From positions 248,001-312,000 of the forward strand of contig KE159594.1 in NCBI GenBank assembly GCA_000403255.2: a DNA stretch of 64,000 bases, read 5' to 3'. Positions 31,746 through 46,529 of this stretch are shown one piece after another. Numbering within the stretch: position 1 is the stretch's first letter; each line of letters opens with the position of its first letter. This DNA comes from Lachnospiraceae bacterium 3-1 (GTDB lineage: Bacteria; Bacillota; Clostridia; Lachnospirales; Lachnospiraceae). Under the pieces are notes generated by a model. It was given only the letters and a program-made list of their open reading frames with translations, did not search any database and was not told the origin of the DNA. A program made the position numbers and the translations under genes.

Positions 31746-32534
31746 CTATTTTGCTACAGCCATATGTACCGACATATCCAGGCTTAAAGGCGTAACCGAT
31801 ATTTTATTTTCCACATATACCGTATAGATATCACTGTCCTTTTCCAAGGACTTCATGTCTACATATTGTACGGATTTCAAACGATATGGCTTGTCAAGCT
31901 CTCTTTTTTCTGGTTTCACAAAATAATAGTTATTTTGCTTACTTTGTGTTGTAATCCGGTACGCAATTGGTCCTTTTAGATCCGCCGGAACATTGATATT
32001 CCAAATATCAGTTTTCTCTGGCATTCCCTGGACCAGCACATCTTCTATGAACTTACGCAAAATCATTTTTGCTGGTTCCCAATCAACCTCATCGAATTCT
32101 TCTGACCTGTATTTCCCATATTCCATGGCCATTGATACCGCAATCCCCGGAATTCCATAGCTATTTGCTTCAAAGGCTGCACCCAATGTTCCACTGCACG
32201 TAATCGTAGTTCCCAGATTCTCACCATAGTTGATGCCGCTAATACATAAATCCGGTTTTCTTTCTGACAACTCCACCACCCCATGGGCGACTGCTAGAGC
32301 GGGAGATCCATGGACTGCATAAGCCGTATGCTTTCTTGTGCCAAGGCACATTTCCACCTTTTCAATCCTTCCAGTCTCCTCTGTTCTGGGAAATGCTCTT
32401 GCCATTCCAGTCTGTTGTCGATTCGGCGCCACAACCAATAAATCACCATATGGCTCTGCTGCTTTGGCCGCTGCCAATAACCCTGGACTCTTAATCCCAT
32501 CATCATTCGTAATCATTATCAAAGGCTTCTTCAT
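31746..32534 (-). CDS. surE: SurE-family 5'/3'-nucleotidase
   Basis: 262 residues. SurE landmarks: ITNDDGIKSPGL with the metal-binding Asp pair, VVAPNRQQTGMA, SGINYGENLG with the catalytic Asn, and YSGTLGAA-like CSGTLGAAFEAN. It is a metal-dependent phosphomonoesterase. Here it is the last gene of the SDR-FGGY kinase operon, which suggests it removes phosphate from a pathway intermediate rather than serving a housekeeping role. That is inference. Confidence 0.92.
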   Translation of the reverse strand: MKKPLIMITNDDGIKSPGLLAAAKAAEPYGDLLVVAPNRQQTGMARAFPRTEETGRIEKVEMCLGTRKHTAYAVHGSPALAVAHGVVELSERKPDLCISGINYGENLGTTITCSGTLGAAFEANSYGIPGIAVSMAMEYGKYRSEEFDEVDWEPAKMILRKFIEDVLVQGMPEKTDIWNINVPADLKGPIAYRITTQSKQNNYYFVKPEKRELDKPYRLKSVQYVDMKSLEKDSDIYTVYVENKISVTPLSLDMSVHMAVAK

Positions 32535-32652: not shown

Positions 32653-34083
32653 TTAACTAAATATCTCGTAAGTTTTCTTAAGCACTTCATCCGTATGCTC
32701 CGTAATTCCAAGATAAACTGGAAGCATTTTCTGATACAATTCAACATTCTCTGGTTTTGGATCAAATGTATCCTTGATGCGAACCATACCTGCAACCGCC
32801 TCATCAAATCCTTCGTATATACCTGCTGCAACCGCCGCACAGATTGCAGAGCCAAGCCCTGCGGCGCCATTCACTTCATTTCTTACCGTACGCATGTTGA
32901 ACACATCTGCCAGTATCTGCATAAACAAATCGCTGTTAGAGCCTCCACCCGTTACAATCATCTGTTCAAGAGTTACACCAACCTCGTTGCTCATATCGTC
33001 CACATGCTTCTTCATGGTCATTGCAACTGCCTCTAAAAGAGAACGGTAAATATGCCCTCTGGTATGTCTTCCGTCAAAACCAATCATAATGCCTTTCTTA
33101 TAGCGGGCATCCACCGGAGCTAACCAGTCAAGTACCGTCATCAGTCCATCGCTTCCAGTTGGAACATTCTTGGCTTCCTCACTCAAAAGCTCTTCCGCTG
33201 ACATGCCTCTTTCTTTTGCCATCTTTACATAACTTACCCCAAGCGCCTCCCGGAACCAGCTAATGGTCCACATGCCTCTTCGAATTCCGTTACTATCGTA
33301 AAGGAACTTATTGGGTACACAGGAAAACTTCGGCCATGCATATGAGGTTCCCTTTAGATTCTCTTTTCCTTCCATCATAGCAGTTGTGTAAGTTCCCAGT
33401 GAAAGACATGCTGTGGTATCTCCCATACATCCTGTCCCCAGCCCTTCCACTGCTTTATCATTGGAAGTAGCCACTACTGGAACTCCTTCTGGAAGCCCTG
33501 TGCGCTCTGCTGCTTCTTTTGTCACATATCCAAGGATATCTCCTGGCATTACCAGCTCAAAGAGCATCTCTCTTGGCATCCCTGTTTCCTCATAGCTCTT
33601 TGGGTCCTCTGACCATCTCCAGTGATCTACATCCACGGGCCATCCATACTCATAATTTGCAACCGTATCCTTAAATTCACCTGTGAGACGGTTTGTAATA
33701 TATCCCGAAGAAGCACAGATCCATCTGACATCTGGATTTGCATGGTCATAGGGCTGAGACACACGGATATCCATCCAGCTAAGGGCAGGCTGTGCCAGAG
33801 AACCGTCTTCTTTCAGATATGCGCGACAGCAACGAATGGTACACAATCCAATTCCAACAATATCCTTCATATCCCCTTCAAACTTTGTCATACATTTTTT
33901 ACTTGCGGCGCAGATTGCATCCCACCAGTCATCATCAGGATGCTCTACGTATCCAGGCTTTGGTAAGTCATATGGCCTAAGGGGTTCTTTATCTTCACAA
34001 ACAATATTTCCCTTGGTGTCAAAAATTGTAATCTTTGCGCTCTGTGAACCTTCGTCAATACCAATGATATATTTTTCACTCAT
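32653..34083 (-). CDS. FGGY-family carbohydrate kinase
   Basis: 476 residues, full length. N-terminal ATPase half begins YIIGIDEGSQSAKITIFD (phosphate-1 motif). The substrate-side segments PGYVEHPDDDWWDAI and LSWMDIR are present. The C-terminal half has LSLGTYTTAMM and IVTGGGSNSDLFMQILADVF (adenosine motif). It phosphorylates a polyol or sugar-like substrate; the residues seen do not name it. It sits 22 bp after the SDR gene, so an oxidoreductase-kinase pair handles the same compound or successive intermediates. Confidence 0.9.
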   Translation of the reverse strand: MSEKYIIGIDEGSQSAKITIFDTKGNIVCEDKEPLRPYDLPKPGYVEHPDDDWWDAICAASKKCMTKFEGDMKDIVGIGLCTIRCCRAYLKEDGSLAQPALSWMDIRVSQPYDHANPDVRWICASSGYITNRLTGEFKDTVANYEYGWPVDVDHWRWSEDPKSYEETGMPREMLFELVMPGDILGYVTKEAAERTGLPEGVPVVATSNDKAVEGLGTGCMGDTTACLSLGTYTTAMMEGKENLKGTSYAWPKFSCVPNKFLYDSNGIRRGMWTISWFREALGVSYVKMAKERGMSAEELLSEEAKNVPTGSDGLMTVLDWLAPVDARYKKGIMIGFDGRHTRGHIYRSLLEAVAMTMKKHVDDMSNEVGVTLEQMIVTGGGSNSDLFMQILADVFNMRTVRNEVNGAAGLGSAICAAVAAGIYEGFDEAVAGMVRIKDTFDPKPENVELYQKMLPVYLGITEHTDEVLKKTYEIFS

Positions 34084-34105: not shown

Positions 34106-34894
34106 TTATCTTACCAGATATCCACCGTCCACGACTAACACTGTACCATTCACATAATCAGAAGCATGGCTCGCAAGGAATACAGTTGCACCCATCAGAT
34201 CCTGTCTCTCACCCCAACGGTCCGCTGGAATATGGTTCTTAATGGCAATGTATTTGGGATCTTCCTCGTTCCCACTTCCTGTTCCGGCTGTCATAGCAGT
34301 CTGGAAATATCCTGGCGCAATACCATTGACACAGATACCATATTTTCCAAGCTCGTCTGCATAAGCCTTTGTAAGTCCCATAAGACCAGCCTTCATTGCC
34401 GCATATGCTGGAGACCCAAGTCCGCCTAAGAAGGAGAACAAGGAACAGATATTGATAATCTTGCCGCTCTTTTGGGGAATCATATATTTTGCAACCGCAT
34501 GACTTAAATCAAATGCGCCTGTCAGGTTAATGGCAATCATTGGGTCCCATTCCGCTCTGCCAAATTCTAACACATCAGCAATCTTACAGATACCTGCACA
34601 ATTTACAAGAATATCTACCTGCCCATATGTTTCCACACACTTGTCGGCAATCTTGTCACACATGCCATCCTCTGTCAGATCACCCTGCATAAAGGTATAT
34701 TTTACTCCACAGTCCTCAATCAATTTTTTCGTAGTCCCATCATCATCTACAAATGCAAATGCAAAAATATCTGCGCCTGCTTTTGCAAGGGCCAATGCAA
34801 ATGCCTGTCCAAGTCCGCTGTTTCCTCCTGTTACAATCGCTTTCTTACCCTTTAGTGAAAAGAAATCCATAGAAAAATCATTAATGTTTACCAT
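34106..34894 (-). CDS. Short-chain dehydrogenase/reductase
   Basis: 262 residues from ATG 34894 (GGAGG eight bases upstream; the earlier ATG at 34909 has none). Classical SDR: nucleotide motif TGGNSGLG near residue 23, NCAG, catalytic Ser in CSLFSFLGG, YAAMK with Tyr and Lys, and C-terminal VDGGYLVR. Related in style to KduD-like polyol/uronate dehydrogenases. First gene after leader A, so it is under terminator/antiterminator control. Confidence 0.92.
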   Translation of the reverse strand: MVNINDFSMDFFSLKGKKAIVTGGNSGLGQAFALALAKAGADIFAFAFVDDDGTTKKLIEDCGVKYTFMQGDLTEDGMCDKIADKCVETYGQVDILVNCAGICKIADVLEFGRAEWDPMIAINLTGAFDLSHAVAKYMIPQKSGKIINICSLFSFLGGLGSPAYAAMKAGLMGLTKAYADELGKYGICVNGIAPGYFQTAMTAGTGSGNEEDPKYIAIKNHIPADRWGERQDLMGATVFLASHASDYVNGTVLVVDGGYLVR

Positions 34895-34989
34895 TATAAT
34901 AACCTCCATCTTTGTGATTTAATATGTTCCTCTAAAAGAGTAGATTCTTATCTGCGCACAACAAGAACCAACAGAATTTCACTCTCCAT

Positions 34990-35045
34990 GGCGCCAAGCA
35001 CAATTGCGAAGCAATGTTTTACCTCTTGTGGGAGCGCTCCTCCCC
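34990..35045. repeat. REP-like dispersed repeat, copy 2
   Basis: The core GCACAATTGCGAAGCAAT plus TTTTACCTCTTGTG matches copy 1 at 4465-4510 with few differences. It sits in the leader between the regulatory terminator and the SDR start. Next to it GCGCTCC TCC CCGGAGGG forms another small hairpin. Confidence 0.6.
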
Positions 35046-35084
35046 GGAGGGTTTTTTCTTTCTAGGATATAATCTCCTATAAAG

Positions 35085-35189
35085 TAAAAAAAAGAGCAAC
35101 TTCTACCTAAATTCATAGATAAAAGTTACTCTCTCTTCCGCTCTTTTAGTAACTATCCACATTATAACCTTGGAATCTAAGATTGTCAA
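35085..35189 (-). promoter_or_regulatory. Leader A: promoter, antiterminator hairpin and terminator of the SDR-kinase-surE operon
   Basis: Minus strand. TTGACA (35184-35189), 17-bp spacer, TATAAT (35161-35166): a consensus promoter. The transcript begins with hairpin AGTTACT...AGTAACT (35124-35154), whose loop holds AGAG and AGAGAG. The 3' arm lies inside the 5' arm of a 17-bp terminator stem (35093-35132) followed by eight T. The two folds exclude each other. The same plan recurs at 43.6, 43.9 and 45.2 kb. Confidence 0.85.
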
Positions 35190-35223
35190 TATCGTGATAA
35201 TACTTAAAAACGCTATTCAATTT

Positions 35224-36105
35224 TTATTCATATTGCACAATTCTTATTTCATTACTTAACACAGGCGTAAAACGCCCAACCCTGAATTTTCGTACAAACA
35301 GTTCACACTTACACAGAAAGAGGTAAAAAACATTCTTTCCACACCCTCGCAATGTCTCAAAATTCCCTTGTCCCTTTGCAATACACAAGTCTGCACTTTC
35401 GATCCACGTAAGCGCTGTCTCATTCACCTGATCCAATGGCGTCCCAGGAACATCTGTACCATTGGGAATTACTGAGGCTATCTCGGTAAGCCCTACTGCC
35501 TTTGCATCGATATATGTCGCATCGTTCAGTACCGGAGCCCCTCTGACAATCACGCCTACTTCCAGATTAGGATAGAACTCTTTCACCACCTCTAGAAATA
35601 TTTTATCAAGAACAATCTCTCCTGCATTATCGGTGATATATGCCAGCCTTTTTGCATTTGCAAGATCCGCCCGTAGATACTCAAGTTCCTCCTCTGAAAG
35701 ACGAATTTCCCCCCGTTTGCTTAGTAATTCGCCCAGCTTTTCTTCCTTCACCTCAGACATGGCCCCAAAATCTATGTAGTTTCCGGTTACGGCATATTGG
35801 AGCCCTGCAAGAAATGGATCCTTTTCTCCTGCAATTTCCTGACGAATTTCCTCTTCCTGCCTCATCAGTATCCGGTTATACTTCTTTTTCGGATATTGAT
35901 AAGAATCCGATACTTTTAAGTGGGCCTCCGCCGCTGAAATCACTTCCGCCATCAAGACAGGAGCAGATTTTTCTTCTGCTGAATCAAGCACCCTTTCCAT
36001 CTGTTCCAAAACCGCTGCCTGAACACTTTCTGAAGCATGATATTGCTCCAACAATCCTGACACTTTATTTCTACAACATTCGAAACACTCTTTCTCTGCT
36101 TTCAT
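35224..36105 (-). CDS. DUF89/ARMT1-like damage-control phosphatase family protein
   Basis: 293 residues. N-terminal cysteines (CFECC) and helical domain, then the DUF89 core with metal-site segment ITDNAGEIVLDKIF, a VRGAPVLNDATYIDAK segment and IAKGQGNFETL. Family members are metal-dependent phosphatases for damaged or side-product sugar phosphates. Last gene of the eight-gene operon, 15 bp after the GlpP-like gene. A clean-up role for a phosphorylated intermediate fits the context but is inference. Confidence 0.85.
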   Translation of the reverse strand: MKAEKECFECCRNKVSGLLEQYHASESVQAAVLEQMERVLDSAEEKSAPVLMAEVISAAEAHLKVSDSYQYPKKKYNRILMRQEEEIRQEIAGEKDPFLAGLQYAVTGNYIDFGAMSEVKEEKLGELLSKRGEIRLSEEELEYLRADLANAKRLAYITDNAGEIVLDKIFLEVVKEFYPNLEVGVIVRGAPVLNDATYIDAKAVGLTEIASVIPNGTDVPGTPLDQVNETALTWIESADLCIAKGQGNFETLRGCGKNVFYLFLCKCELFVRKFRVGRFTPVLSNEIRIVQYE

Positions 36106-36120
36106 GGCTTCTCCCTCCTG

Positions 36121-36696
36121 CTAGCAGTCCCATAATTTTCGGTTTGTAGTGGCAACTGCAATCGCCCCTGCTTTCAAAGCTCCGATAATATCTTCTTCAT
36201 CCTGGGTAAGCCCACTTGCCACGATTGGCTTCTCGATGGTCTCTGCCAAATACTTCATAACCTTATAAAGTCCTGCAGGCAAAAATTCCACCACATCCGG
36301 GTCACAGTTTTTGACATGCTTTGCAACATTGGCATAGGTAAATCCATCCATCATATAAAAACGCTGAATCGTAAACATACCAATTTCATTTGCCCGTTTA
36401 ATCATTGCTGGCTTCATGCTGATGATACCATCTGCTTTCGTATATTTCTTAATAAAATCTATACTGATTTCCTTTGCGGAGAGTCCAACAATCAAATCTA
36501 CATGGACAATTGCCTTCTTCCCTGCTTCCCTTACCTTTTCAACGATATCAGCAACCGTGCAAATATCCCCATACAAAACATACGCGATATCACTATCTGA
36601 TTCTTTTAAAGCCCCCAGCCATTCATCATTTTTAATTTCTGGAATCACCGGACAGTTTTCTGTGGATTCTAAAAAAAATTCTTTTGTCAGAGACAC
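36121..36696 (-). CDS. GlpP-family RNA-binding antiterminator
   Basis: 191 residues, full length for GlpP. TIM-barrel-like family landmarks: VHVDLIVGLSAKEISIDFI, ADGIISMKPAMIKRANEIGMFTIQRFYMMD, PDVVEFLPAGLYKVMKYL and IVASGLTQDEEDIIGALKAGAIAVATT. In Bacillus GlpP binds leader RNA and, with glycerol-3-phosphate, prevents termination. Here it is inside the operon driven by leader B, and four similar terminator-containing leaders surround it, so it is the natural candidate for their regulator and may induce itself. The ligand may be another phosphorylated compound made by the neighbouring kinase. Confidence 0.85.
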   Translation of the reverse strand: MSLTKEFFLESTENCPVIPEIKNDEWLGALKESDSDIAYVLYGDICTVADIVEKVREAGKKAIVHVDLIVGLSAKEISIDFIKKYTKADGIISMKPAMIKRANEIGMFTIQRFYMMDGFTYANVAKHVKNCDPDVVEFLPAGLYKVMKYLAETIEKPIVASGLTQDEEDIIGALKAGAIAVATTNRKLWDC

Positions 36697-36699
36697 CTT

Positions 36700-38304
36700 T
36701 CATTCCTCCTGCTCAATGGGCAGACGCGAACTTTCCACTGGTCTGCCTGCACTGTCGTAATCTTCTTTATGCACATCATACTTTTGCGGATTTAAACTTA
36801 TTTTCAATAATCCTGCAATCATGATGACCATTAGGAACATATTTGGGAAACCACCTAGGTTCGATGCCGCTTTGATGCCGTCAATCCCGGCAAAGCTAAT
36901 TAAGATCCATGTAGCCAGCGCCATTGTAATTCCCCATACCGCCTTTAACCATGCTGGGGATTCCTGATTGTCCTGCGTTACCCCACTCGTACATAATCCT
37001 GCCATAGCATTCGTATTAGAATCCGTCGCTGTAACAAAGGAAATAAATACAATAAACAGATAAAACGGTATTATGAGCATGGAAAGGGGAAGCTGTTCAA
37101 AAACAGAATATACCACCGATTCCGCACCGCTCTTTGACATAATATCATATAATCCTGCTCCATTTAACTCATAATATATGGTAGCGGTGGAAAATAATCC
37201 CATCCAGATTGTGCTAAAAATTGCAGGAATAATAAAGTTACATTTGATTGCATCTTTTACGGTATATCCTCTCAGTATTTTTCCCAGAAATACCGCTGTA
37301 ATCGGCGTCCATGCCAGCCAGTTGCACCAATAGAAATTCGGCCAGCTCTTTGCCCATCCGTCCTCAAAAATATCTCCTGTCATCAAGCTCATCCGAAAGA
37401 AATCCTGTAGGTATGCTCCCCAGGACTCAGCCGTAAAATTCAGCATAAATGCAGTTGGCCCAAGTACAAAAACAAACAAAAGAAGCGCCATATACACCTT
37501 GGCATTGATGGATGATAAAATTCGAATCCCATTCATGATACCAGAAATACTAGATAAAATAAATGCTGCCGCAATCACTGCAATCACCACTCCCCAGGAA
37601 ATCGGGCCGCTCTTAATTCCAAACACCTTTTCGACGCCGCCTGCAATATTCATGGCGCCTGTCCCAAGGGCTGCTGCCACACCTGCCGACAGTGCAAACA
37701 GACAGATGACGTCAACCACCCCATTATATTTTTTCACTCTATCCCCAAACACCGGAACTAAAGCGGAACCCATGGAATAGGGCTGATTCATATTATAAAA
37801 TACAAACGTGAATATGAGTGTGGCTACTGTGTAAATCGCATATGGTGACCATGTCCACTCTAGAAACATTGTCTTCATGGCAAATACCGCCGCTTCTGGA
37901 GAGCCAGCCTTCGCCCCCTCTGCCACTGCTGGGGCATACAAATGGTACATAGGCTCTGCACATGCCCAGAATAGTATTCCTGCTGCAATTGTAGTACAAA
38001 GAGTAATCCAGACCAGATTCATATAATTCATAATCGGCCTCGCCTTGCTCCCACCAATCCTCACCTTTCCAAGAGGGGAAAAGTAGATAAAAATCACTGT
38101 TCCAACACATGCCAATGTAGTCAGGTTAAACGCCCATCCAAAATTATTCAGAATCCAGTTTGTTACTGCATTTAACCCTGTTAAAAAAGCATCCCCATTC
38201 GTCAAGCTTACCCCTACCATCGCTACCAGTAAAAGCCATGGTGGGAAAAAAACACCTTTACGCAATGTCAATTTTACGGTTCTTTCGTTCTTACTACCTT
38301 CCAT
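36700..38304 (-). CDS. BCCT-family transporter
   Basis: 534 residues with about twelve membrane helices. BCCT signatures: GILFWACAEPMYHLY and the aromatic substrate region FLEWTWSPYAIYTVATL. The family imports quaternary ammonium zwitterions such as betaine, choline or carnitine, by Na+ or exchange. It starts five bases after the preceding gene and is followed three bases later by glpP, so it is probably the uptake system of the catabolic pathway. This is the best clue that the substrate is zwitterionic. Confidence 0.92.
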   Translation of the reverse strand: MEGSKNERTVKLTLRKGVFFPPWLLLVAMVGVSLTNGDAFLTGLNAVTNWILNNFGWAFNLTTLACVGTVIFIYFSPLGKVRIGGSKARPIMNYMNLVWITLCTTIAAGILFWACAEPMYHLYAPAVAEGAKAGSPEAAVFAMKTMFLEWTWSPYAIYTVATLIFTFVFYNMNQPYSMGSALVPVFGDRVKKYNGVVDVICLFALSAGVAAALGTGAMNIAGGVEKVFGIKSGPISWGVVIAVIAAAFILSSISGIMNGIRILSSINAKVYMALLLFVFVLGPTAFMLNFTAESWGAYLQDFFRMSLMTGDIFEDGWAKSWPNFYWCNWLAWTPITAVFLGKILRGYTVKDAIKCNFIIPAIFSTIWMGLFSTATIYYELNGAGLYDIMSKSGAESVVYSVFEQLPLSMLIIPFYLFIVFISFVTATDSNTNAMAGLCTSGVTQDNQESPAWLKAVWGITMALATWILISFAGIDGIKAASNLGGFPNMFLMVIMIAGLLKISLNPQKYDVHKEDYDSAGRPVESSRLPIEQEE

Positions 38305-38308
38305 AGTC

Positions 38309-38824
38309 TCACTCCTTTTTTATCACTACATTTACCGTGTCTGCCTGATACCTCCTTATAAGCCGAATCAATGTCTCTTCCTGCTCTCTGCCTAATATCC
38401 GCTTCGGAACCGCACATACTTCCCCACCTGCTTTTATGATGTACATATTCTGCGAAATATAGAATTTTAATTTCCCATTTTCCAACCTTATCTTCCTGTT
38501 ACTGCCAGCAGGTTCGATATAAGAATCCTTGATAACAAGCTGATACCTGCTGTCCTTTTGGAACATTCTTTCCGCCCTTTTTTTCCTCTGCCACTGTGGG
38601 CCATACCTTAGATAAAACAGCAATAAAATAATCGTAAAAAGTGTGAAAAACAAGAAAAACTGCTCTGGTTTTCTTATATAAGCAATTAAAACCACTACTC
38701 CAAGTATACTGAGAATCACCAAATTCACACTTTTTAGCATCCCCTCTTGTTTCCAACTAAGACAGAGCAGTGTCTCCTCTATTTCTTCTTTCGTAAGCTG
38801 ATAGTTAAGCTTCAGCCCTCCCAT
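38309..38824 (-). CDS. YcxB-like membrane protein
   Basis: 171 residues. N-terminal soluble strand (LNYQLTKEEIEETL), two membrane helices (about 32-70), then a basic cytoplasmic domain with RLENGKLKFYISQNMYIIKAGGEVCAVPKRIL, the YcxB-type PH-like fold. The ATG directly abuts AAGGAG with almost no spacer, so translation may start slightly later or depend on coupling to the gene upstream. Role in the operon unknown. Confidence 0.6.
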   Translation of the reverse strand: MGGLKLNYQLTKEEIEETLLCLSWKQEGMLKSVNLVILSILGVVVLIAYIRKPEQFFLFFTLFTIILLLFYLRYGPQWQRKKRAERMFQKDSRYQLVIKDSYIEPAGSNRKIRLENGKLKFYISQNMYIIKAGGEVCAVPKRILGREQEETLIRLIRRYQADTVNVVIKKE

Positions 38825-38839
38825 CTCCTTTCCGTTGAT

Positions 38840-40261
38840 TTAATTCCATATATTGCCTCTGTTTAGCATTTCGCCTGGGTCAAACAATTCCTTTGCCTTT
38901 TTGCACTGTTCGATATATGCATCTGCAAGCAAATCACCCAGGATTTCCTTTTTCAGTTTTCCAATCCCATGTTCCCCAGGGAAAATACTCTGTTCCTTTC
39001 CAATTCTTACCGCCCATTTTTGCATCAGCTCGATTCCCTTGCAATATTCCTCATAGGACTCTGGAAGAATATTGACATGAAGATGATTTTCCATTGCATG
39101 TCCAAAAATACAGCCCTTAAGCCCCAAAGCAGAAAGCTCCTTTTCGAAGCTGCCAAGTGTCTGCCCAAATGTGCCGTCGCACATCATATCCATGCCAATC
39201 TTGGTAATCCGGCGGTCTTTTCTATGCTGCTTTTCAATAAAAAGATTCACCATTTCTGCCGCTGCATGACGGAAGATATGAAGCTTTTCTATCTCTGCTT
39301 CCTCGGATACTGCCCACGCTTCATCTGGGTCGCCTCCGCATTCCATCGCCAGCTCCATCAACTGTTCCGCAATTTCTTCAATACCTTCCTCCTGCCCATG
39401 AACCTCCATATATATCATAGCCTCAATTTCTTCCCTGATACCTGGAAGCTCTTTTATTCTTGTCATGAACGGCCTGCTTTCCTCAATCATAACAAGGCTT
39501 GCCTTCCCGATGTATTCCACCGCTGCAATAGACGCAAAATCATTTTTAGGCATCTCTTCTTTTAATCCATCTACAAACGCTGCCGCCTGTTCATTTTTTT
39601 CAAAGAAAAATGCCAGTCCCCAGATAGCTTCTGGTTTTGGAAGCAGTTTCAATGTAAGCTCTGTAATAATTCCAGTAATCCCTTCCTTTCCAAGGGCCAG
39701 GGTCAATGCATCCACACATTCATTCCCTGATAACGCCTTACTCTCGCCACGGCATAATTTTGTAACCTGGCCTTCATAATCCATGATACGCACAGATTCT
39801 ATATATTGTCCACTTTTCCCATATAAGATACGATTGATTCCCTGAGCGCCTGATGCGGCAATCCCACCAACGCTGGCCGAGGTTTCTGTTGGATCTACTG
39901 GCCAAAACTGGGGATTTTTTCGGAACAAATTATTAATTTCTTTCTTAAGGTCAATCAAATTAATGCCTGGCTGAACCTGTATACGCCCCGTTCCGTCTTC
40001 TTCCTCCCAGAAACCTAGCGCCTTGTTCATGCGGGAAAGATTCATGAGATGTCCCCCTTTGGGAATTGCACCGCCTACAATACCAGTTTTTCCCCCTTGT
40101 ATGGTAACAGGTATTCCCTTTTGGGATAATTCTTTTAAAATACCGGCCACCTCTTCCTCAGATTTTGGGAAAGATATACTGTCTGCATATCCACTATACT
40201 TGGATTCATCTATAAGATATTCCTCATATTCTTCACTCATTGGATAGATATTCTGCGCCAT
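38840..40261 (-). CDS. FAD-linked oxidase, GlcD/D-lactate dehydrogenase family (second copy)
   Basis: 473 residues. FAD_binding_4 domain with IPVTIQGGKTGIVGGAIPKGG and the PTETSASVGGIAASGAQG pyrophosphate loop; the C-terminal FAD-oxidase domain with IFGHAMENHLHVNI and GEHGIGKLKKE. These enzymes oxidise alpha-hydroxy acids and pass electrons to ETF or quinone. With EtfAB next door it is likely an ETF-dependent, possibly bifurcating, dehydrogenase like the Acetobacterium lactate system. Only about 35% like-looking to the operon's first oxidase, so the two probably differ in substrate. Confidence 0.88.
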   Translation of the reverse strand: MAQNIYPMSEEYEEYLIDESKYSGYADSISFPKSEEEVAGILKELSQKGIPVTIQGGKTGIVGGAIPKGGHLMNLSRMNKALGFWEEEDGTGRIQVQPGINLIDLKKEINNLFRKNPQFWPVDPTETSASVGGIAASGAQGINRILYGKSGQYIESVRIMDYEGQVTKLCRGESKALSGNECVDALTLALGKEGITGIITELTLKLLPKPEAIWGLAFFFEKNEQAAAFVDGLKEEMPKNDFASIAAVEYIGKASLVMIEESRPFMTRIKELPGIREEIEAMIYMEVHGQEEGIEEIAEQLMELAMECGGDPDEAWAVSEEAEIEKLHIFRHAAAEMVNLFIEKQHRKDRRITKIGMDMMCDGTFGQTLGSFEKELSALGLKGCIFGHAMENHLHVNILPESYEEYCKGIELMQKWAVRIGKEQSIFPGEHGIGKLKKEILGDLLADAYIEQCKKAKELFDPGEMLNRGNIWN

Positions 40262-40283
40262 GCTTTTACCACCTGCCCTCTCC

Positions 40284-41282
40284 TTATTTACAAATTGTGT
40301 AACTAATTACCATGGGGTTTTTGGTAGTTACCAATTTTTTTAATTCTTCCAGAACCGGAAGAAAATCATCCACAACCGCTACGTCTGCCATCTTCATAAT
40401 TGGGGCATTCTCATCGGTATTAATCGCGGCAATGAACTTGCTTTTTTCAATACCAGCATAAAATGCTGCTGCCCCAGATACACCTGCCGTAATACAGATT
40501 TCGGGTCCCACCATAGCCCCTGAAACACCAATCAGCCGATTCATAGGCTTCCATGCATTCATGGCTGCCGGACGGCTGACTGCCACCTCTGCCCCAAGAC
40601 ATTTCGCCGTTTCATCAATAACCGTCATATTTTCCTTATTCTTTACCCCTCGCCCTGCTGCCAAAATAACCTTCGCATGACCAAGACTGTCTTCTGAAGC
40701 CTCTGGATAAAATTTCTGTGATAAAATATGGTCTGCCTGGTTCTCACAAATCATTTCTTCCTTCACACAAAACATGCCAGGCGTAAGCTCCTGCCACTCC
40801 CCTCCTCTTGCAAGACTGATGCAGTAAGGTCCTCGCTTCATGGCAAAAATCCCTTCCATATGATTGGCATAGACCATTTTACTTACAGATATCCCATGAT
40901 TTTTCCCACTGTTCTCCTGTCCCTTCACAGGAAGATATAGCTTCTCTGCTTCTGTAACTGAGCTTCCCAAAAGTCTTGCCGCCATGCGTACTGCAAGCTC
41001 CATACCACTGTCGTCGCTTCCAAAAATATATAATTCTTCCGTTCCTGCCTGGCTGCAAAGCACCTGGAGGATATGCTCTGGTACATACTCCTTTGACTTA
41101 ATAAATACCGCTTCCTTGGCATGATGCGCCTGTATCTTCTGCACATCTTCTGAGTTTCGGCAATAAATGATTGCTTCTTTCTGCTCCATCCCAGCCAGAT
41201 ACTTTTGGGCAAATCCTTTTTGTTCCTCCATCTGACTTTGGACATCTTCTGTATAGCCATTTACAACAAAATGGTATCTCAT
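40284..41282 (-). CDS. etfA: Electron transfer flavoprotein alpha subunit
   Basis: 332 residues. The C-terminal FAD domain is clear (KVILAAGRGVKNKENM, GAEVAVSRPAAMNAWKPMNRLIGVSG, FIAAINTDENAPIMKMADVAVVDD). The N-terminal half is more diverged and lacks an iron-sulfur extension. It overlaps the EtfB gene by 4 bp. It should accept electrons from one or both FAD-linked dehydrogenases of the operon. Confidence 0.9.
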   Translation of the reverse strand: MRYHFVVNGYTEDVQSQMEEQKGFAQKYLAGMEQKEAIIYCRNSEDVQKIQAHHAKEAVFIKSKEYVPEHILQVLCSQAGTEELYIFGSDDSGMELAVRMAARLLGSSVTEAEKLYLPVKGQENSGKNHGISVSKMVYANHMEGIFAMKRGPYCISLARGGEWQELTPGMFCVKEEMICENQADHILSQKFYPEASEDSLGHAKVILAAGRGVKNKENMTVIDETAKCLGAEVAVSRPAAMNAWKPMNRLIGVSGAMVGPEICITAGVSGAAAFYAGIEKSKFIAAINTDENAPIMKMADVAVVDDFLPVLEELKKLVTTKNPMVISYTICK

Positions 41283-42094
41283 AGCATGGACAGCCTCCCT
41301 TTCAAATACTTTTCGTAAAGATGTCTTGCTTTCTCCTCCGGTGAATCCCCCTCTATGATCACCGTATTCCGTTTCCGGTCTATGGGATTTAGCCCAATTA
41401 ACTGGACACTCTCGCCCGCTTCCACCATACCAAGCTCCTCTGGCATAAGCTGTGTTACTGGACGCTTGCCCAGCTTCATCTTATCCTTTAGCGTTGGTAT
41501 TCGAAGATAGGCGCAAGGGGCGTTTCCCACTGCAAGCACACAAGGAGTTTTTACCTGGCGGACCATGTATCCCCCTGGAACCTGTGCCGTTACCTGCAGA
41601 TGGTCTTCATCCATTGGCTCCATACCAACCACTTGAGTTATGCATGGCCACTCTAGCTTTTCCGCCAACAGATAGGGGGTCTTTTTATTGCTTCCATCTG
41701 AACTTTGGATTCCAGTGATAATTACATCCTGCTCCTCAACTTTTTTCACATAATTTGCAATCCCCTCTGAAACCATCTCCGGGGAAAAAAGAATATCCTC
41801 CTCTGTTTCCACACAGATTCTCACTCCCTCTGAAAAGCCAAGAGCATACAATGTTTTCAGAAAACCTTCTGTTTTCTGCCTGCCAATGGTAAGAGCGCTC
41901 AATTTATATACGACATTAAGACCTTCTGATAAATCAGAAAGCCTTAACATCATCTCCAATGCCCCTTCGTCAAAACAGTTCCAGACTAATTTTGCATATC
42001 CAGTATCTACGTAAGACTGATTCTTTTTATTCCAGTCCTCCTCCACAATCAAATCCAAATCTGGAACGACTTTAAAACATCCGAGTATTTTCAT
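41279..42094 (-). CDS. etfB: Electron transfer flavoprotein beta subunit
   Basis: 271 residues. ETF-beta traits: MKILGCFKVVPD start, NCFDEGALEMML, and ITGIQSSDGSNKKTPYLLAEKLEWPCIT (nucleotide-binding stretch), then VTAQVPGGYMVRQVKTPCVLAV. Begins three bases after the first FAD oxidase gene. Whether this ETF bifurcates electrons (NADH to ferredoxin plus acceptor) or simply relays them cannot be decided by eye. Confidence 0.9.
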   Translation of the reverse strand: MKILGCFKVVPDLDLIVEEDWNKKNQSYVDTGYAKLVWNCFDEGALEMMLRLSDLSEGLNVVYKLSALTIGRQKTEGFLKTLYALGFSEGVRICVETEEDILFSPEMVSEGIANYVKKVEEQDVIITGIQSSDGSNKKTPYLLAEKLEWPCITQVVGMEPMDEDHLQVTAQVPGGYMVRQVKTPCVLAVGNAPCAYLRIPTLKDKMKLGKRPVTQLMPEELGMVEAGESVQLIGLNPIDRKRNTVIIEGDSPEEKARHLYEKYLKGRLSML

Positions 42095-42097
42095 AGA

Positions 42098-43555
42098 CTA
42101 TTTCCTCAATGGAATCAATGTTCCCATATTCATAATGCCATTTGGATCAAACGCCTGTTTTAATGTCTTAAGCATATAATAGGAAGAACCGTATTCCTGG
42201 GTTACGTATTTTGCTCTTGCTTTTCCGAGGCCATGATGATGAACGATAGATCCGCCATACTTAATTACCTGCTCACAGATAATCTGGTTGATTCTGTCAT
42301 GGTATTTATTAATCTCCTCTTCTGGGGCACAGTCCACAATATTATAGTAATATACGAAATACATATTTGTTCCGTTAATGTAGCTATGTGAGGAATGTCC
42401 TCCCATCAAGGTCATATCCGGCACTTCCTCCAGTATTCTGTCACATGCAGTCTTATAAATCTCGTAAATATTATCCCAGCTTCCAGAAACCTCTGTTGTA
42501 ATTCCGATATTCTGTGTTGCACGAATTTCCTCTTTTTCCTGTGCAATCTCCTCTGGTCCCCAGTTCAATCCACTATACCACTTCTCGATCAATGCCGGGT
42601 CCACCTCTTCCAGCTCTGGATGCTTTGACATTAATTTCTTGATGCCTTCTTCCATCGCCGGCGTAATATTCGCTGGACCTTCCGCCATCCAAATTAAGAT
42701 TGCTTTCCCTTCTTCCAGCCATGCACTGAAATGCTGCTGTGCGTCTGCCGCGTCATAGAGTCTTGCAAAGGATGGTCTGTATCCTTCCACCATAACCTCA
42801 CGCAAGCAGTCAAATCCAAGCTTCATATGTTCATCATCCAGTTTATAACCAATATAACGGTTGTTCTCTGGCTGCCATTTGAAAAGCTTCAATGTCACCT
42901 CTGTAATAAAGCAGATAGCGCCTTCATTTCCACAAATGATATGCCTGATATCCGGTCCTGCCGCACGTCTTGGCACATTCTTGATTCTGCAAATCTTACC
43001 ATTGGGAAAAACTGCTTCCATACCAACAATCATGTCCTCAATTCCACCATACAATGTAGAGAACTGGCCAATACTTCTTGTTGCAACAAGGCCACCGATC
43101 TGTGCCAGCGGTTTGGACTGAGGAGAATGTCCGGTTGTATATCCTCTTTCCCTTAACATGTCATCAAGCTCCTGGAGCGGAACACCGCACTGGCAGGTTA
43201 CCTGCATATTATACTCGTCTACCTTAATCACTTTATTCATAGTTGATCCATCAATTACGACAGAATCCTTCAATGCTGTCTCCAATCCACCCTCAATTGC
43301 AGAATGCCCAGTCCGTGGAACAACGTTAATCTCATTCTCATTTGCGAAAGCCAGCACATCTGCCACTTCCTGGGTGTCCTTTACATAGACAACCGCTGCG
43401 GGAATCGGCTGTGTATAGACTTCGCATACCTGCTCATACTTTCTATATCTGTCTAAACTGCTCTCTTTTAATACCTGCTCATCTGTGATTACCTGCTCTT
43501 CTCCAAGGATTTTTACCAATCCCTCTACAATCTGTTCTCTTGAAATAATTGCCAT
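42098..43555 (-). CDS. FAD-linked oxidase, GlcD / alkyl-DHAP synthase-like
   Basis: 485 residues, AAAGGAG before ATG. FAD_binding_4: VVPRTGHSAIEGG, the pyrophosphate region QIGGLVATRSIGQFSTLYGG. The C-terminus ends SIVHHHGLGKARAKYV and FDPNGIMNMG, close to the alkyl-DHAP synthase/glycolate oxidase branch (HHHG). First gene of the eight-gene operon after leader B. It probably oxidises the imported hydroxyl compound and hands electrons to EtfAB. Confidence 0.88.
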   Translation of the reverse strand: MAIISREQIVEGLVKILGEEQVITDEQVLKESSLDRYRKYEQVCEVYTQPIPAAVVYVKDTQEVADVLAFANENEINVVPRTGHSAIEGGLETALKDSVVIDGSTMNKVIKVDEYNMQVTCQCGVPLQELDDMLRERGYTTGHSPQSKPLAQIGGLVATRSIGQFSTLYGGIEDMIVGMEAVFPNGKICRIKNVPRRAAGPDIRHIICGNEGAICFITEVTLKLFKWQPENNRYIGYKLDDEHMKLGFDCLREVMVEGYRPSFARLYDAADAQQHFSAWLEEGKAILIWMAEGPANITPAMEEGIKKLMSKHPELEEVDPALIEKWYSGLNWGPEEIAQEKEEIRATQNIGITTEVSGSWDNIYEIYKTACDRILEEVPDMTLMGGHSSHSYINGTNMYFVYYYNIVDCAPEEEINKYHDRINQIICEQVIKYGGSIVHHHGLGKARAKYVTQEYGSSYYMLKTLKQAFDPNGIMNMGTLIPLRK

Positions 43556-43599
43556 CTTACTGGACTCCTTTCACTTTATTATTTTCCGTTGAAAAGAAA

Positions 43600-43718
43600 C
43601 AAAAAAAGAGTGGTAACCTTCCAAAGCAAATGCGCCATTTGCTTCTTCAGTTACCACTCTCTAATCATCTCTTCGAGTAACTGCCCTTAGTATAAAATAT
43701 TTTGTTCCTTTTTGTCAA
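43600..43718 (-). promoter_or_regulatory. Leader B: promoter, antiterminator and terminator of the FAD oxidase-ETF-BCCT-glpP operon
   Basis: Minus strand. TTGACA (43713-43718), 18-bp spacer, TATACT (43689-43694). The RNA starts with CAGTTAC (43677-43683) pairing with GTAACTG (43648-43654); the loop holds GAAGAG and AGAGAG. The 3' arm overlaps a long terminator stem (43607-43660; outer AGAGTGGTAAC/GGTTACCACTCT, inner AAGCAAATG/CATTTGCTT) followed by seven T. Same logic as leader A. Confidence 0.85.
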
Positions 43719-43847
43719 TTAGTAATATTTTATATTTTTAGATTTTGATTTTTGTGCAAGATGTCTATGCTGCCAAAGGCAGAAAGACCTTTTGGTTCTA
43801 TAAATATCGGCTATTATAAAAAATGGGGAAACTCAAAAAACTTTATA

Positions 43848-44031
43848 TTGACAAGGGCTTGCATATCGCATAAAATGTTACCAATTTATGGTTCACTATA
43901 ACTCTTAGCGATACCAATTAACAACAAACTTAACCATATAGAATTGCTAACCACAGAACAAAGAGTAAATTTAGAGTAAAGTTCTGGGCTGTTGCACTAT
44001 GACCTTTGATGCAACAGCCCAGAACTTTTTT
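43848..44031 (+). promoter_or_regulatory. Leader C: promoter and terminator/antiterminator of the decayed MFS gene
   Basis: Plus strand TTGACA (43848-43853), 17-bp spacer, TAAAAT (43871-43876). Further down, CAGAAC (43954-43959) pairs with GTTCTG (43981-43986), with AGAG at 43962-43965 and 43973-43976 in the loop. GTTCTG is also inside the terminator 5' arm (43979-43996), which pairs perfectly with 44010-44027 and is followed by six T. The stem sequence differs from leaders A, B and D, but the AGAG-spaced loop and the overlap are kept. The leader before the hairpin is longer here. Confidence 0.7.
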
Positions 44032-44090
44032 ATTCTATAGGAAAAACAATTATGCTGACAGCCATTTAGATTCAATCAAGGAGATTATTA

Positions 44091-45060
44091 TGCTTTCATT
44101 CAAAAAGAGAACTTTTATTGTAACAATACTTGCTGCTTCCCATAATTCTATCTACAGCTTTGCTTTTATGAAAGGACTTTACTATACCATACTATTAAAC
44201 GGGATGCCCTTACACATTTTCAGTTAGGCCAGCTTTACAGCGCTTACGGTATCTTCTCTATGTTTTCTTATCTGTTTGGCGTCTTTTTTCTCAATCGTTT
44301 TGCCAAATGGAAATTAATCACTGGTTCCTCACTCCTCGTAAGTCTGTTGACTGGATGCCTGATCTTACTTCCATCATATTATATTATGCTTCTGATTTTT
44401 GGAACAGCAGGATTCTTAATCGGAGCAACGTTCTATCCCGTCCACCTTGAAATTCTCCATCAATTGGGAGGAACAGAAAATCAAGGCTCTGTATTCAGCC
44501 TGTTTTTTGTATGCAACAGTTTGTTTGGCCTTATATTTTCACTCATTGGATTCGGCATAACTTCACTGCCCTTTTCAGACACAAGGCAGACACAGCTTTT
44601 GTTTCTTCTATTTGCTTTACTGAACCTGACTGCATCCATTTTTTCTGCCATTTATCTTAGGCAGCTTCCTGAGCCCCATGTGGTACGAACCCGTATCCGC
44701 CTTTCCAGTATAGGGAATCTGGTTACAAACAAACGGTTATGGATGATCATTATCATTGTTTTTATAAACTACATTGCTTATACAAACATAAATTATGTGC
44801 TTCCCTATTTAAGCGAAACCTTTCATCTGCCAGTCCGAGTGAATAATTTGCTGTCCATCATCCGTGTATACTTTATTGGAATCATTGCTGCCCCTATTGC
44901 CGGAAAAATTACCGACTTACTGCACTCTGCCTCCCGTATTATGGGATATACTTTTTTACTGCACAGCATTGCAATCCATATCATCTTCTTTCTTGCTGCT
45001 ATGGCTTCACTGATTGGCTTTTTTGTTGTACGAAAATTAAATCACAAATCTTCTTCGTGA
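44091..45060 (+). pseudogene. MFS transporter, frameshifted and shortened
   Basis: AAGGAG precedes ATG 44091. The first frame (MLSFKKRTFIVTILAASH...YYTILLNG) stops at 44224-44226. The family sequence continues in another frame as DALTHFQLGQLYSAYGIFSMFSYLFGVF and runs to 45060. One base change near 44203 would restore it. The C-terminal part is about two helices shorter than normal MFS proteins (SRIMGYTFLLHSIAIHIIFFLA). Probably a decayed paralog of the intact MFS gene downstream, with the same type of leader. Confidence 0.75.
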
Positions 45061-45128
45061 ATTTGTACAGTTTTTCATGTATTTTTTTGTAAATAATATA
45101 CACAATTGATTTTTTATGCTTTTTTTAA

Positions 45129-45221
45129 TTGACTTTTTGTCATAGTTATTTTATGATGAGTTCAGTTACAAGAGTGAAGAGAGAGAAGTAACGCCGCAAG
45201 GCATTACTTTTCTCTTTTTTT
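45129..45221 (+). promoter_or_regulatory. Leader D: promoter, antiterminator and terminator of the intact MFS gene
   Basis: Plus strand TTGACT (45129-45134), 17-bp spacer, TATGAT (45152-45157). CAGTTAC (45163-45169) pairs through GTTAC with GTAAC (45188-45192); the loop reads AAGAG TGA AGAGAGAGAA. The 3' arm overlaps the terminator stem (45182-45215: AGAGAAGTAA, GCC gcaa GGC, TTACTTTTCTCT) followed by seven T. Very close to leaders A and B although on the other strand. Confidence 0.85.
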
Positions 45222-45290: not shown

Positions 45291-46529
45291 ATGGACAAAT
45301 CATTTATCAAAAAATATGGCACCCTGCTTCTTTTGGCTGCTGGCGCTGGAATCATCTTCCAGCTTCCCTATATCCGCGAAACATTCTACGTTCCTATTCA
45401 GAATGCAATGAACTTAAGCAATGCCCAGATGGGTATGCTTTCCGCCGGATATGCTACTGTTGCAACTGTATCTTATTTTATCGGTGGGGCAATTGCCGAC
45501 AAATTCTCCGCAAGGAAATTATTGACATTCTCCTTCCTGGCAACCGGTGGTTTGGGACTTTGGTTCTCTACCTTCCCAGGCTATACAACCAGCCGTATTA
45601 TCTTTGTATTAATGGGAATTTCAACAATTATTACATACTGGTCGGCATGTATCAAGGCAACCCGTATGCTGGGCTCCGATGAAGAACAGGGCCGTCTCTT
45701 TGGCCTTCAAGAAGGGCTCCGTGGTATCTTAAATGCGCTTTTGGTATTTGTTATGACCGCTGCTTTTGCCCGTCATACCAATGAGGTTGCCGGCGCCGCT
45801 TCTGCCATCCGTATCTGTTCCTTTGCAGTAATTATCATTGGTATTTTAAATTTTATCTTTATCGAAGATACAAAAAAAGAAGAGAACAGCGAATCGGTTC
45901 TCGAAGTTACCAAGGGCCTGTTCAAAATGCTTTTGATACCCAGAGTATGGCTGCTTGTAGGAATTATCTTCACCGCATACAGTGTATACGGATTAATTGG
46001 CTATGTAACAACCTATGCCCAGCAGTTTTACGGACTCACTGCCACCACTGCTGCAACACTTGGAGGAATACGTTATCTACTCCAGGGTCTTGGCGGTATT
46101 GCAGGAGGATTCCTTGCTGATAAACTGCATTCACGTATAAAAGTTATTGTTGGCGGCTGCATCGGCCTGGTTCTTTCCTTTGGCGCTTACATTGTCCTGC
46201 CAGGCAACGCTTCCCTGCTTGCGGCTGTTATCATAAACTTTTTCATCGGCCTTATCTTCATTTATGCCGTAAGAAGCCAGTATTTTGCAGTACATGACGA
46301 TGCCAAAATTCCCCTTCACTTAAGCGGCCGTGTGTCCGGTATTGCTTCTGCGCTTGGATATATGCCAGATATGTTTATGTACACATTAGTAGGTAGCTGG
46401 ATGGATAGCTACGGAAGAAACGGATATAATATGACCTGGGCTTACGCTATGGTGGCAGCCGCATTGTGTATCGTTCTCTCTCTTATCCTCAGCAAGGTTG
46501 TCAAGGACGGAAAAGAAATTGATGCATAA
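45291..46529 (+). CDS. MFS transporter
   Basis: 412 residues from ATG 45291, GGAGG six bases upstream; the upstream in-frame ATG at 45252 has no ribosome site. Twelve hydrophobic segments; motif A-like GGAIADKFSARKLL between helices 2 and 3, and GGFLADKLHSRIKVIVGG between 8 and 9. Possible hydroxyacid or organophosphate-type carrier by general appearance, but the substrate is not readable. Controlled by leader D, so it is probably a second importer or product exporter of the same pathway. Confidence 0.85.
   Translation: MDKSFIKKYGTLLLLAAGAGIIFQLPYIRETFYVPIQNAMNLSNAQMGMLSAGYATVATVSYFIGGAIADKFSARKLLTFSFLATGGLGLWFSTFPGYTTSRIIFVLMGISTIITYWSACIKATRMLGSDEEQGRLFGLQEGLRGILNALLVFVMTAAFARHTNEVAGAASAIRICSFAVIIIGILNFIFIEDTKKEENSESVLEVTKGLFKMLLIPRVWLLVGIIFTAYSVYGLIGYVTTYAQQFYGLTATTAATLGGIRYLLQGLGGIAGGFLADKLHSRIKVIVGGCIGLVLSFGAYIVLPGNASLLAAVIINFFIGLIFIYAVRSQYFAVHDDAKIPLHLSGRVSGIASALGYMPDMFMYTLVGSWMDSYGRNGYNMTWAYAMVAAALCIVLSLILSKVVKDGKEIDA

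Follow-up and report, generated by a model that had tools for sequence, protein, structure and literature searches.

Attenuation leaders ahead of ygc-type genes in Lachnospiraceae bacterium 3-1, probably read by a GlpP-family protein

In the 64,000-nucleotide (nt) window of Lachnospiraceae bacterium 3-1 analyzed here (KE159594.1; all coordinates below are positions in this window), three transcription units, termed A, B and D, open with short leaders in which a promoter, a small hairpin and an intrinsic terminator follow each other closely. The units hold a gene set homologous to the ygc cluster of Escherichia coli K-12, including a protein of the GlpP family (PF04309), and this gut bacterium probably switches on the ygc-type nutrient pathway by means of hairpins that are read by its GlpP relative. 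A, B and D are genuine leaders, and it appears very probable from their comparison across genomes that they work by attenuation, under the control of the GlpP-family protein whose gene is part of the regulon itself. The evidence is computational throughout and was read from the sequence: mutually exclusive folds, conservation, compensatory base changes, gene context, and co-occurrence with GlpP proteins of the ygc type. An earlier sequence-only reading of this stretch had proposed four units with one shared leader design, which holds for A, B and D and is weaker for C, where the hairpin is distant from the promoter, the stem is another one and the gene behind it is broken.

Leader A, on the minus strand, consists of a promoter (TTGACA-17-TATAAT, 35161..35189), an antiterminator-type hairpin in which AGUUACU and AGUAACU enclose the loop AAAAGAGCGGAAGAGAG (35124..35154), and a terminator (35085..35139). 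Leader B, on the same strand, has the promoter TTGACA-18-TATACT (43689..43718), the hairpin AGUUACUCGAAGAGAUGAUUAGAGAGUGGUAACU (43649..43682) and a terminator at 43600..43662, while leader D, on the plus strand, has TTGACT-17-TATGAT (45129..45157), AGUUAC-AAGAGUGAAGAGAGAGAA-GUAACG (45164..45193) and a terminator at 45179..45221, all promoters having been located by a sigma-70 scan. In each of the three, the -10 box and the first base of the hairpin are 6 nt apart, which agrees with the proposal of an AGUUAC-loop-GUAAC hairpin near the 5' end of the transcript, and two AGAG-type motifs lie within the loop. The 5' arm of the terminator holds the 3' arm of the hairpin, so that the two folds exclude each other as had been claimed; the terminator of C overlaps its hairpin as well. 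Computed folding gave -3.7, -3.7 and -2.4 kcal/mol for the isolated hairpins of A, B and D (the minimum-energy fold of B being a slightly different helix), and -28.3, -34.4 and -24.6 kcal/mol for the full, terminator-dominated leaders. In such models, the terminator should outcompete the hairpin in A, B and D when the leader is unaided.

The bare pattern AAGAG-N-AGAG-N-GTAAC was unspecific as a detector, with 7 matches in the bacterium's own genome versus 20 for the reversed pattern, and the four own-genome matches besides A, B and D showed no such terminator in either sequence or folds. It was therefore exchanged for scans that require a hairpin plus terminator, and for a covariance model. 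A loop-agnostic scan, based on an RUURC stem with an overlapping terminator, covered the window together with 81 further loci. Of its 187 matches in real sequence, 141 had the two-purine loop, compared with none of 42 in reversed sequence; this loop is therefore not a product of chance. Some of the 46 real matches without it are slightly varied leaders (with CGAGA as the first motif) or antisense readings.

The covariance model that had been suggested as a check, here called R1, was trained on 21 Lachnospiraceae hairpins, namely A, B and D with 18 from relatives, and not on C. As members of the training set, A, B and D score 41.8, 40.1 and 37.4 bits, and they are the only matches at E <= 10 in the bacterium's own 5.08-Mb genome. 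Beyond the training set, 53 of 62 sources were matched at E <= 1, including the ygcW leader of E. coli (29.4 bits, E = 0.0019). Among 150 genomes of the family, R1 at E < 0.01 matched in three only, all with a ygc-type GlpP; these three had supplied training sequences, and what counts is that the remaining 147 gave no such match. Six matches in five further family genomes, at E values of 0.02-0.05, are about what chance would give. Searches of Rfam, including T-box and other leaders and riboswitches, returned no match at the gathering score, and three sub-threshold matches (E <= 1) were to unrelated families; identity with a known Rfam leader was rejected. The sequence-only reading named no class for the pattern, but the leaders can be placed beside GlpP antitermination, with a target and a regulon of their own, given the similar hairpins before canonical glp genes described below.

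The same leaders recur in other genomes. Two of the 150 family genomes, G085 and G077, whose GlpP proteins are identical to that of the window at 75% of positions in one case and 63% in the other, have retained the gene set, and in each of them three such leaders stand ahead of the corresponding genes. In E. coli K-12, two back-to-back leaders, AGUUACC-AGAGAUAAUGAGAAA-GGUAACU and AUUACU-AGAGACCUGAGAAA-AGUAAU, lie between ygcW and yqcE at about 2900334-2900362 and 2900505-2900532 of NC_000913.3 (computed from the locus offset), each continuing into its own terminator. Of 5426 E. coli genomes, 4998 contain this intergenic region at a coverage of >= 80%. For a wider view, a FAD-oxidase (flavin adenine dinucleotide oxidase) scan of a one-genome-per-species collection was used to select ygc-type loci, and the best 80 of 316 relatives gave 79 loci from Lachnospiraceae, other Clostridia, Bacilli, Enterobacterales, Actinomycetota and a Treponema. 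The motif scan of ygc-type loci produced 148 matches, versus 23 in reversed sequences; restricted to AGUUAC-like stems, it left 145 hairpins (93 distinct) from 84 sources (the window, L043, L044, L130, L133 and L136-L214). Each of the 145 is followed within 450 nt by a ygc-type gene, encoding an SDR oxidoreductase (58), FAD oxidase (30), MFS transporter (27), YqcE (23), BCCT transporter (6) or second MFS transporter (1). A -10-like box occurs within 60 nt upstream of 127 of the 145, compared with 55 of 145 control stretches, and 58 of these boxes sit 6-7 nt before the hairpin. One further leader, noted by eye, precedes an MFS gene on an Enterococcus raffinosus plasmid.

The presence of the leader follows that of the ygc-type GlpP. 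A leader was found at 71 of the 79 loci, 67 by the strict scan and four more by R1. The GlpP gene lies inside the fetched stretch at 65 loci, every one of them with a leader, and four of the remaining six leader-positive loci belong to genomes with a ygc-type GlpP elsewhere; the other two, L137 and L158, are metagenome-assembled genomes in which a glp-type GlpP alone was found, and whose contigs stop before the place of the gene in relatives. Seven of the eight leader-negative loci come from genomes without any GlpP above the family cut-off, and the eighth, L166, which could have passed for an exception with a GlpP and no leader, was dismissed as such since its GlpP is of the glp type. In total, 69 loci have both leader and ygc-type GlpP, two the leader only, none the GlpP only, and eight neither (Fisher p = 1.7e-9, relatedness ignored). 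Together with conservation and compensatory changes, this co-occurrence gives good support to the proposed antiterminator/terminator design of the leaders and to their link with the glpP-like gene. In a tree of 130 GlpP proteins, the 67 ygc-associated ones split into two groups, of 43 and 24 rows, each with good support, and three alignment columns only separate them from other GlpPs. The bacterium's own genome has three PF04309 genes, one of which sits among glycerol genes (L041:4778-7217, contig C26), where a CAUUGC-AGAGAUGAGAGAG-GCAAUG leader with a stem unlike the AGUUAC of the window precedes a glpA-like gene. The third paralogue, L042 on contig C23, has no recognized glp gene nearby, and no convincing leader was found there.

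Base pairing is maintained in both folds. Pairing holds in 95.9% of the stem cells when 69 distinct hairpins are aligned, with G-C replaced by A-U at pair 2-34 in 13 rows and A-U replaced by G-C at pair 5-31 in four; paired cells, double-change cells and the covariation score all exceed those of all 500 shuffles, although the rows are related and their cells are not independent events. In the terminator of 16 A-type leaders, 99.6% of cells are paired, double changes occur in 7 of 16 pairs, and the terminator is above all shuffles on every measure.

Hairpins of a similar kind stand before canonical glp genes. In 64 GlpP loci, of which L043 and L044 are ygc-type, we found 39 hairpins that overlap a terminator and bear a paired (A/G)GAG loop, five of them being the leaders of L043 and L044 themselves. 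Another 23 of the 39, from 20 of the 62 other GlpP loci, are directly before glpF, glpK, a glpD/glpA-like gene or glpP (1 of 6 in reversed sequences), and their stems differ from AGUUAC, as in UGUGGU-GGAGAAGAGGAGA-ACCACA. The Cytobacillus glpPFKD operon has AAAGAGAUUAAGAGAC in the glpF leader and, seen by eye, UUAGAGACCACGAGAGACC in the glpD leader. From these comparisons, GlpP targets seem commonly to carry the paired loop motif on a variable stem, and the stem may set the specificity of each paralogue.

The best reading of these comparisons is antitermination of the GlpP type, carried out by a paralogue that has an RNA target of its own and serves a regulon other than that of glycerol, present in Bacillota and Enterobacterales. 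By default, the nascent leader would fold into the intrinsic terminator and transcription would halt. Once loaded with its effector, the GlpP-like protein would bind the 5'-terminal hairpin by recognizing its AGUUAC stem and both AGAG-type motifs of the loop, and the bound hairpin would withhold the 3' arm of its stem from the terminator, leading to co-transcription of the ygc-type units. The effector may be a phosphorylated metabolite, by analogy with GlpP and glycerol-3-phosphate, and one could guess that the FGGY kinase makes it. Protein binding, the direction of regulation, the effector, and the stem as determinant of paralogue specificity are what we infer. More broadly, there is a fair likelihood that the GlpP family is a multi-specificity antitermination system reaching beyond glycerol across Bacillota and Enterobacterales, with a bipartite (A/G)GAG loop presented on a paralogue-specific stem (AGUUAC for ygc, others for glp), and that YgcP of E. 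coli K-12 is a working antiterminator on the ygcW and yqcE leaders.

Several results weigh against antitermination by the GlpP relative. At its limit of E <= 1, R1 misses L133 and the yqcE leader of E. coli, no sigma-70 pair was detected before either E. coli leader at the scan threshold used, and R1 at E <= 1 finds nothing in the whole L165 and L181 genomes. The leaders of the latter two score 20-22 bits, and their misses imply that R1 loses more distant leaders. No such hairpin was seen before a glp gene at 42 of the 62 other GlpP loci, including Vescimonas and Planococcus. The co-occurrence is partly phylogenetic, because the leader-negative loci belong mostly to distant taxa, and an origin of the ygc-associated GlpPs in one clade is without support in the 130-protein tree. 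Finally, two of the five hairpin measures lie within the shuffles (double-change pairs as high in 50 of 500, further pair types in 259 of 500), and the hairpin stem of A-type leaders is nearly invariant and without covariation.

Three other explanations were weighed. The leaders could be read by a different RNA-binding regulator or by another GlpP paralogue of the genome, which the three GlpPs per cell favor, as do L137 and L158 with their leaders and glp-type GlpPs, albeit on contigs that end where the ygc-type gene is expected; we regard this as very unlikely, since L166 has a glp-type GlpP and no leader, a leader accompanies GlpP wherever the latter is in the fetched stretch, and the bacterium's own glp-type hairpin has a different stem. 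It is equally improbable that the element is a protein-free RNA sensing a small molecule, with GlpP simply belonging to the same pathway. A riboswitch would likewise combine mutually exclusive folds with a loop that is conserved, but the hairpin is tiny (~30 nt, 6-7 base pairs), has similar counterparts before glp genes near other GlpPs and no Rfam match above cut-off, and is missing at ygc-type loci in genomes that lack a ygc-type GlpP in spite of having the pathway genes. Just as little probability falls to constitutive terminators or mRNA-stabilizing 5' hairpins without regulated read-through, for which the strong terminators and the stabilization of glpD mRNA by GlpP mentioned in a review could be cited: a fixed terminator before every unit would silence the pathway, and the first AGAG motif is conserved outside both drawn helices (a result for which the design of one of the two underlying scans partly selects).

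Element C, on the plus strand, has a promoter (TTGACA-17-TAAAAT, 43848..43876, sigma-70 scan), a hairpin with a CAGAAC/GUUCUG stem and a purine loop (43954..43986), and an overlapping terminator (43980..44032), followed by a second MFS gene (44090..45060) that is frameshifted and truncated. The hairpin lies ~77 nt downstream of the -10 box, as opposed to 6 nt in A, B and D. C as a full member of the leader set was rejected: R1 does not match it, even in the own-genome search at E <= 10, and blastn of 43740-45128 against 81 related loci gave no match. A homologous open MFS gene stands behind a weakly C-like leader in L144 and L161 (the latter leader noted by eye), and behind a standard AGUUAC leader in L155. 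Because of these three, C was retained, and it is best read as a diverged leader that is drifting while the fourth unit behind it decays. The sequence-only reading had taken its new stem and kept loop as a mark of selection on an RNA, which the leaders of the relatives favor, and the broken gene and the place of C outside the model disfavor.

Unit A, on the minus strand, encodes an SDR oxidoreductase (34106..34909; 66% identical to E. coli YgcW) and an FGGY kinase (32653..34083; 51% to YgcE). About 175 nt between terminator A and the SDR gene (34910-35084) are untranslated, with a GC-rich inverted repeat and a T-run on the plus strand at ~35030-35060. An open reading frame behind the kinase (31746-32534) is SurE-like by eye, a similar one follows the kinase of L044, and it perhaps belongs to the same pathway. 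Unit B, also on the minus strand, starts with an FAD oxidase (42098..43555; 60% to YgcU), an EtfB-like protein (41279..42094; 33% to YgcR, from which comparison it is named), an EtfA-like protein (40284..41282; 33% to YgcQ) and a second FAD-linked oxidase (38840..40261). It continues with a small protein without a Pfam match, a BCCT-family transporter (36700..38304), the GlpP-family protein that is the putative reader of the leaders (36121..36696; 43% to YgcP), and, last, an ARMT1-like (DUF89) protein (35224..36105). Homologues of the GlpP protein include a solved structure, 3kts (E 5.7e-24). Unit D, on the plus strand, encodes an MFS transporter (45291..46529; 30% to YqcE), in an open reading frame from 45252 whose start at 45291 was picked by its ribosome-binding site. 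A betaine-like substrate is hinted at by the BCCT genes, by an ABC transporter in L044 that is OpuC-like by eye, and by an ABC transporter in L133 whose annotation names osmoprotectants.

Antitermination by GlpP is itself already known, and in work by Glatz in 1998 GlpP reportedly bound the glpD leader of Bacillus subtilis. Like the B. subtilis glp regulon (glpD, glpF, glpK, glpT, glpQ), the units described here combine a PF04309 protein with a conditional terminator just after the promoter. Ligand-bound GlpP is described as breaking the B. subtilis terminator and binding the antiterminator, and according to a review GlpP additionally stabilizes glpD mRNA. The Bacillus-type glpF and glpD leaders of Cytobacillus also share the paired AGAGA motifs before the terminator. 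Unlike the canonical system, the present one involves other GlpP groups, a conserved AGUUAC stem and a presence in Enterobacterales, and A, B and D precede ygc-type rather than glycerol or glycerol-3-phosphate genes, for which reason we class them as a variant outside the glp regulon. The HutP leader of the hut operon is comparable in its antitermination through two purine-containing repeat clusters, which are 20 nt apart, whereas here a single small loop holds both motifs and the protein belongs to PF04309. The ribonucleic antiterminators (RAT) of BglG and LicT are alike in a protein-held hairpin that overlaps the terminator, but LicT reads two bulges and the intervening stem, whereas the loop is the conserved part here; no PRD protein was among the ten window proteins scanned, although no search with a RAT model was made.

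As far as a search of open-access literature shows, novelty appears to lie in the RNA element, in the ygc regulon and in the targets proposed for E. coli. The titles and abstract openings returned by this search contained nothing on a target of the putative anti-terminator ygcP, and "putative anti-terminator" is all that the E. coli K-12 annotation of ygcP states. A riboswitch-entropy survey names ygcW as the operon downstream of two of its own windows, at a distance of 3.5-4.2 kb, in a passage that does not deal with these leaders, and a CRP target list includes ygcW<>yqcE in a passage likewise unrelated to them.

Taken together, the leaders propose a sequence-defined RNA target for the GlpP protein family and a predicted regulon for ygcP of E. 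coli K-12, where the conservation of the region opens the model to a test in a laboratory strain. They would also tie together the genes of an uncharacterized oxidative pathway.

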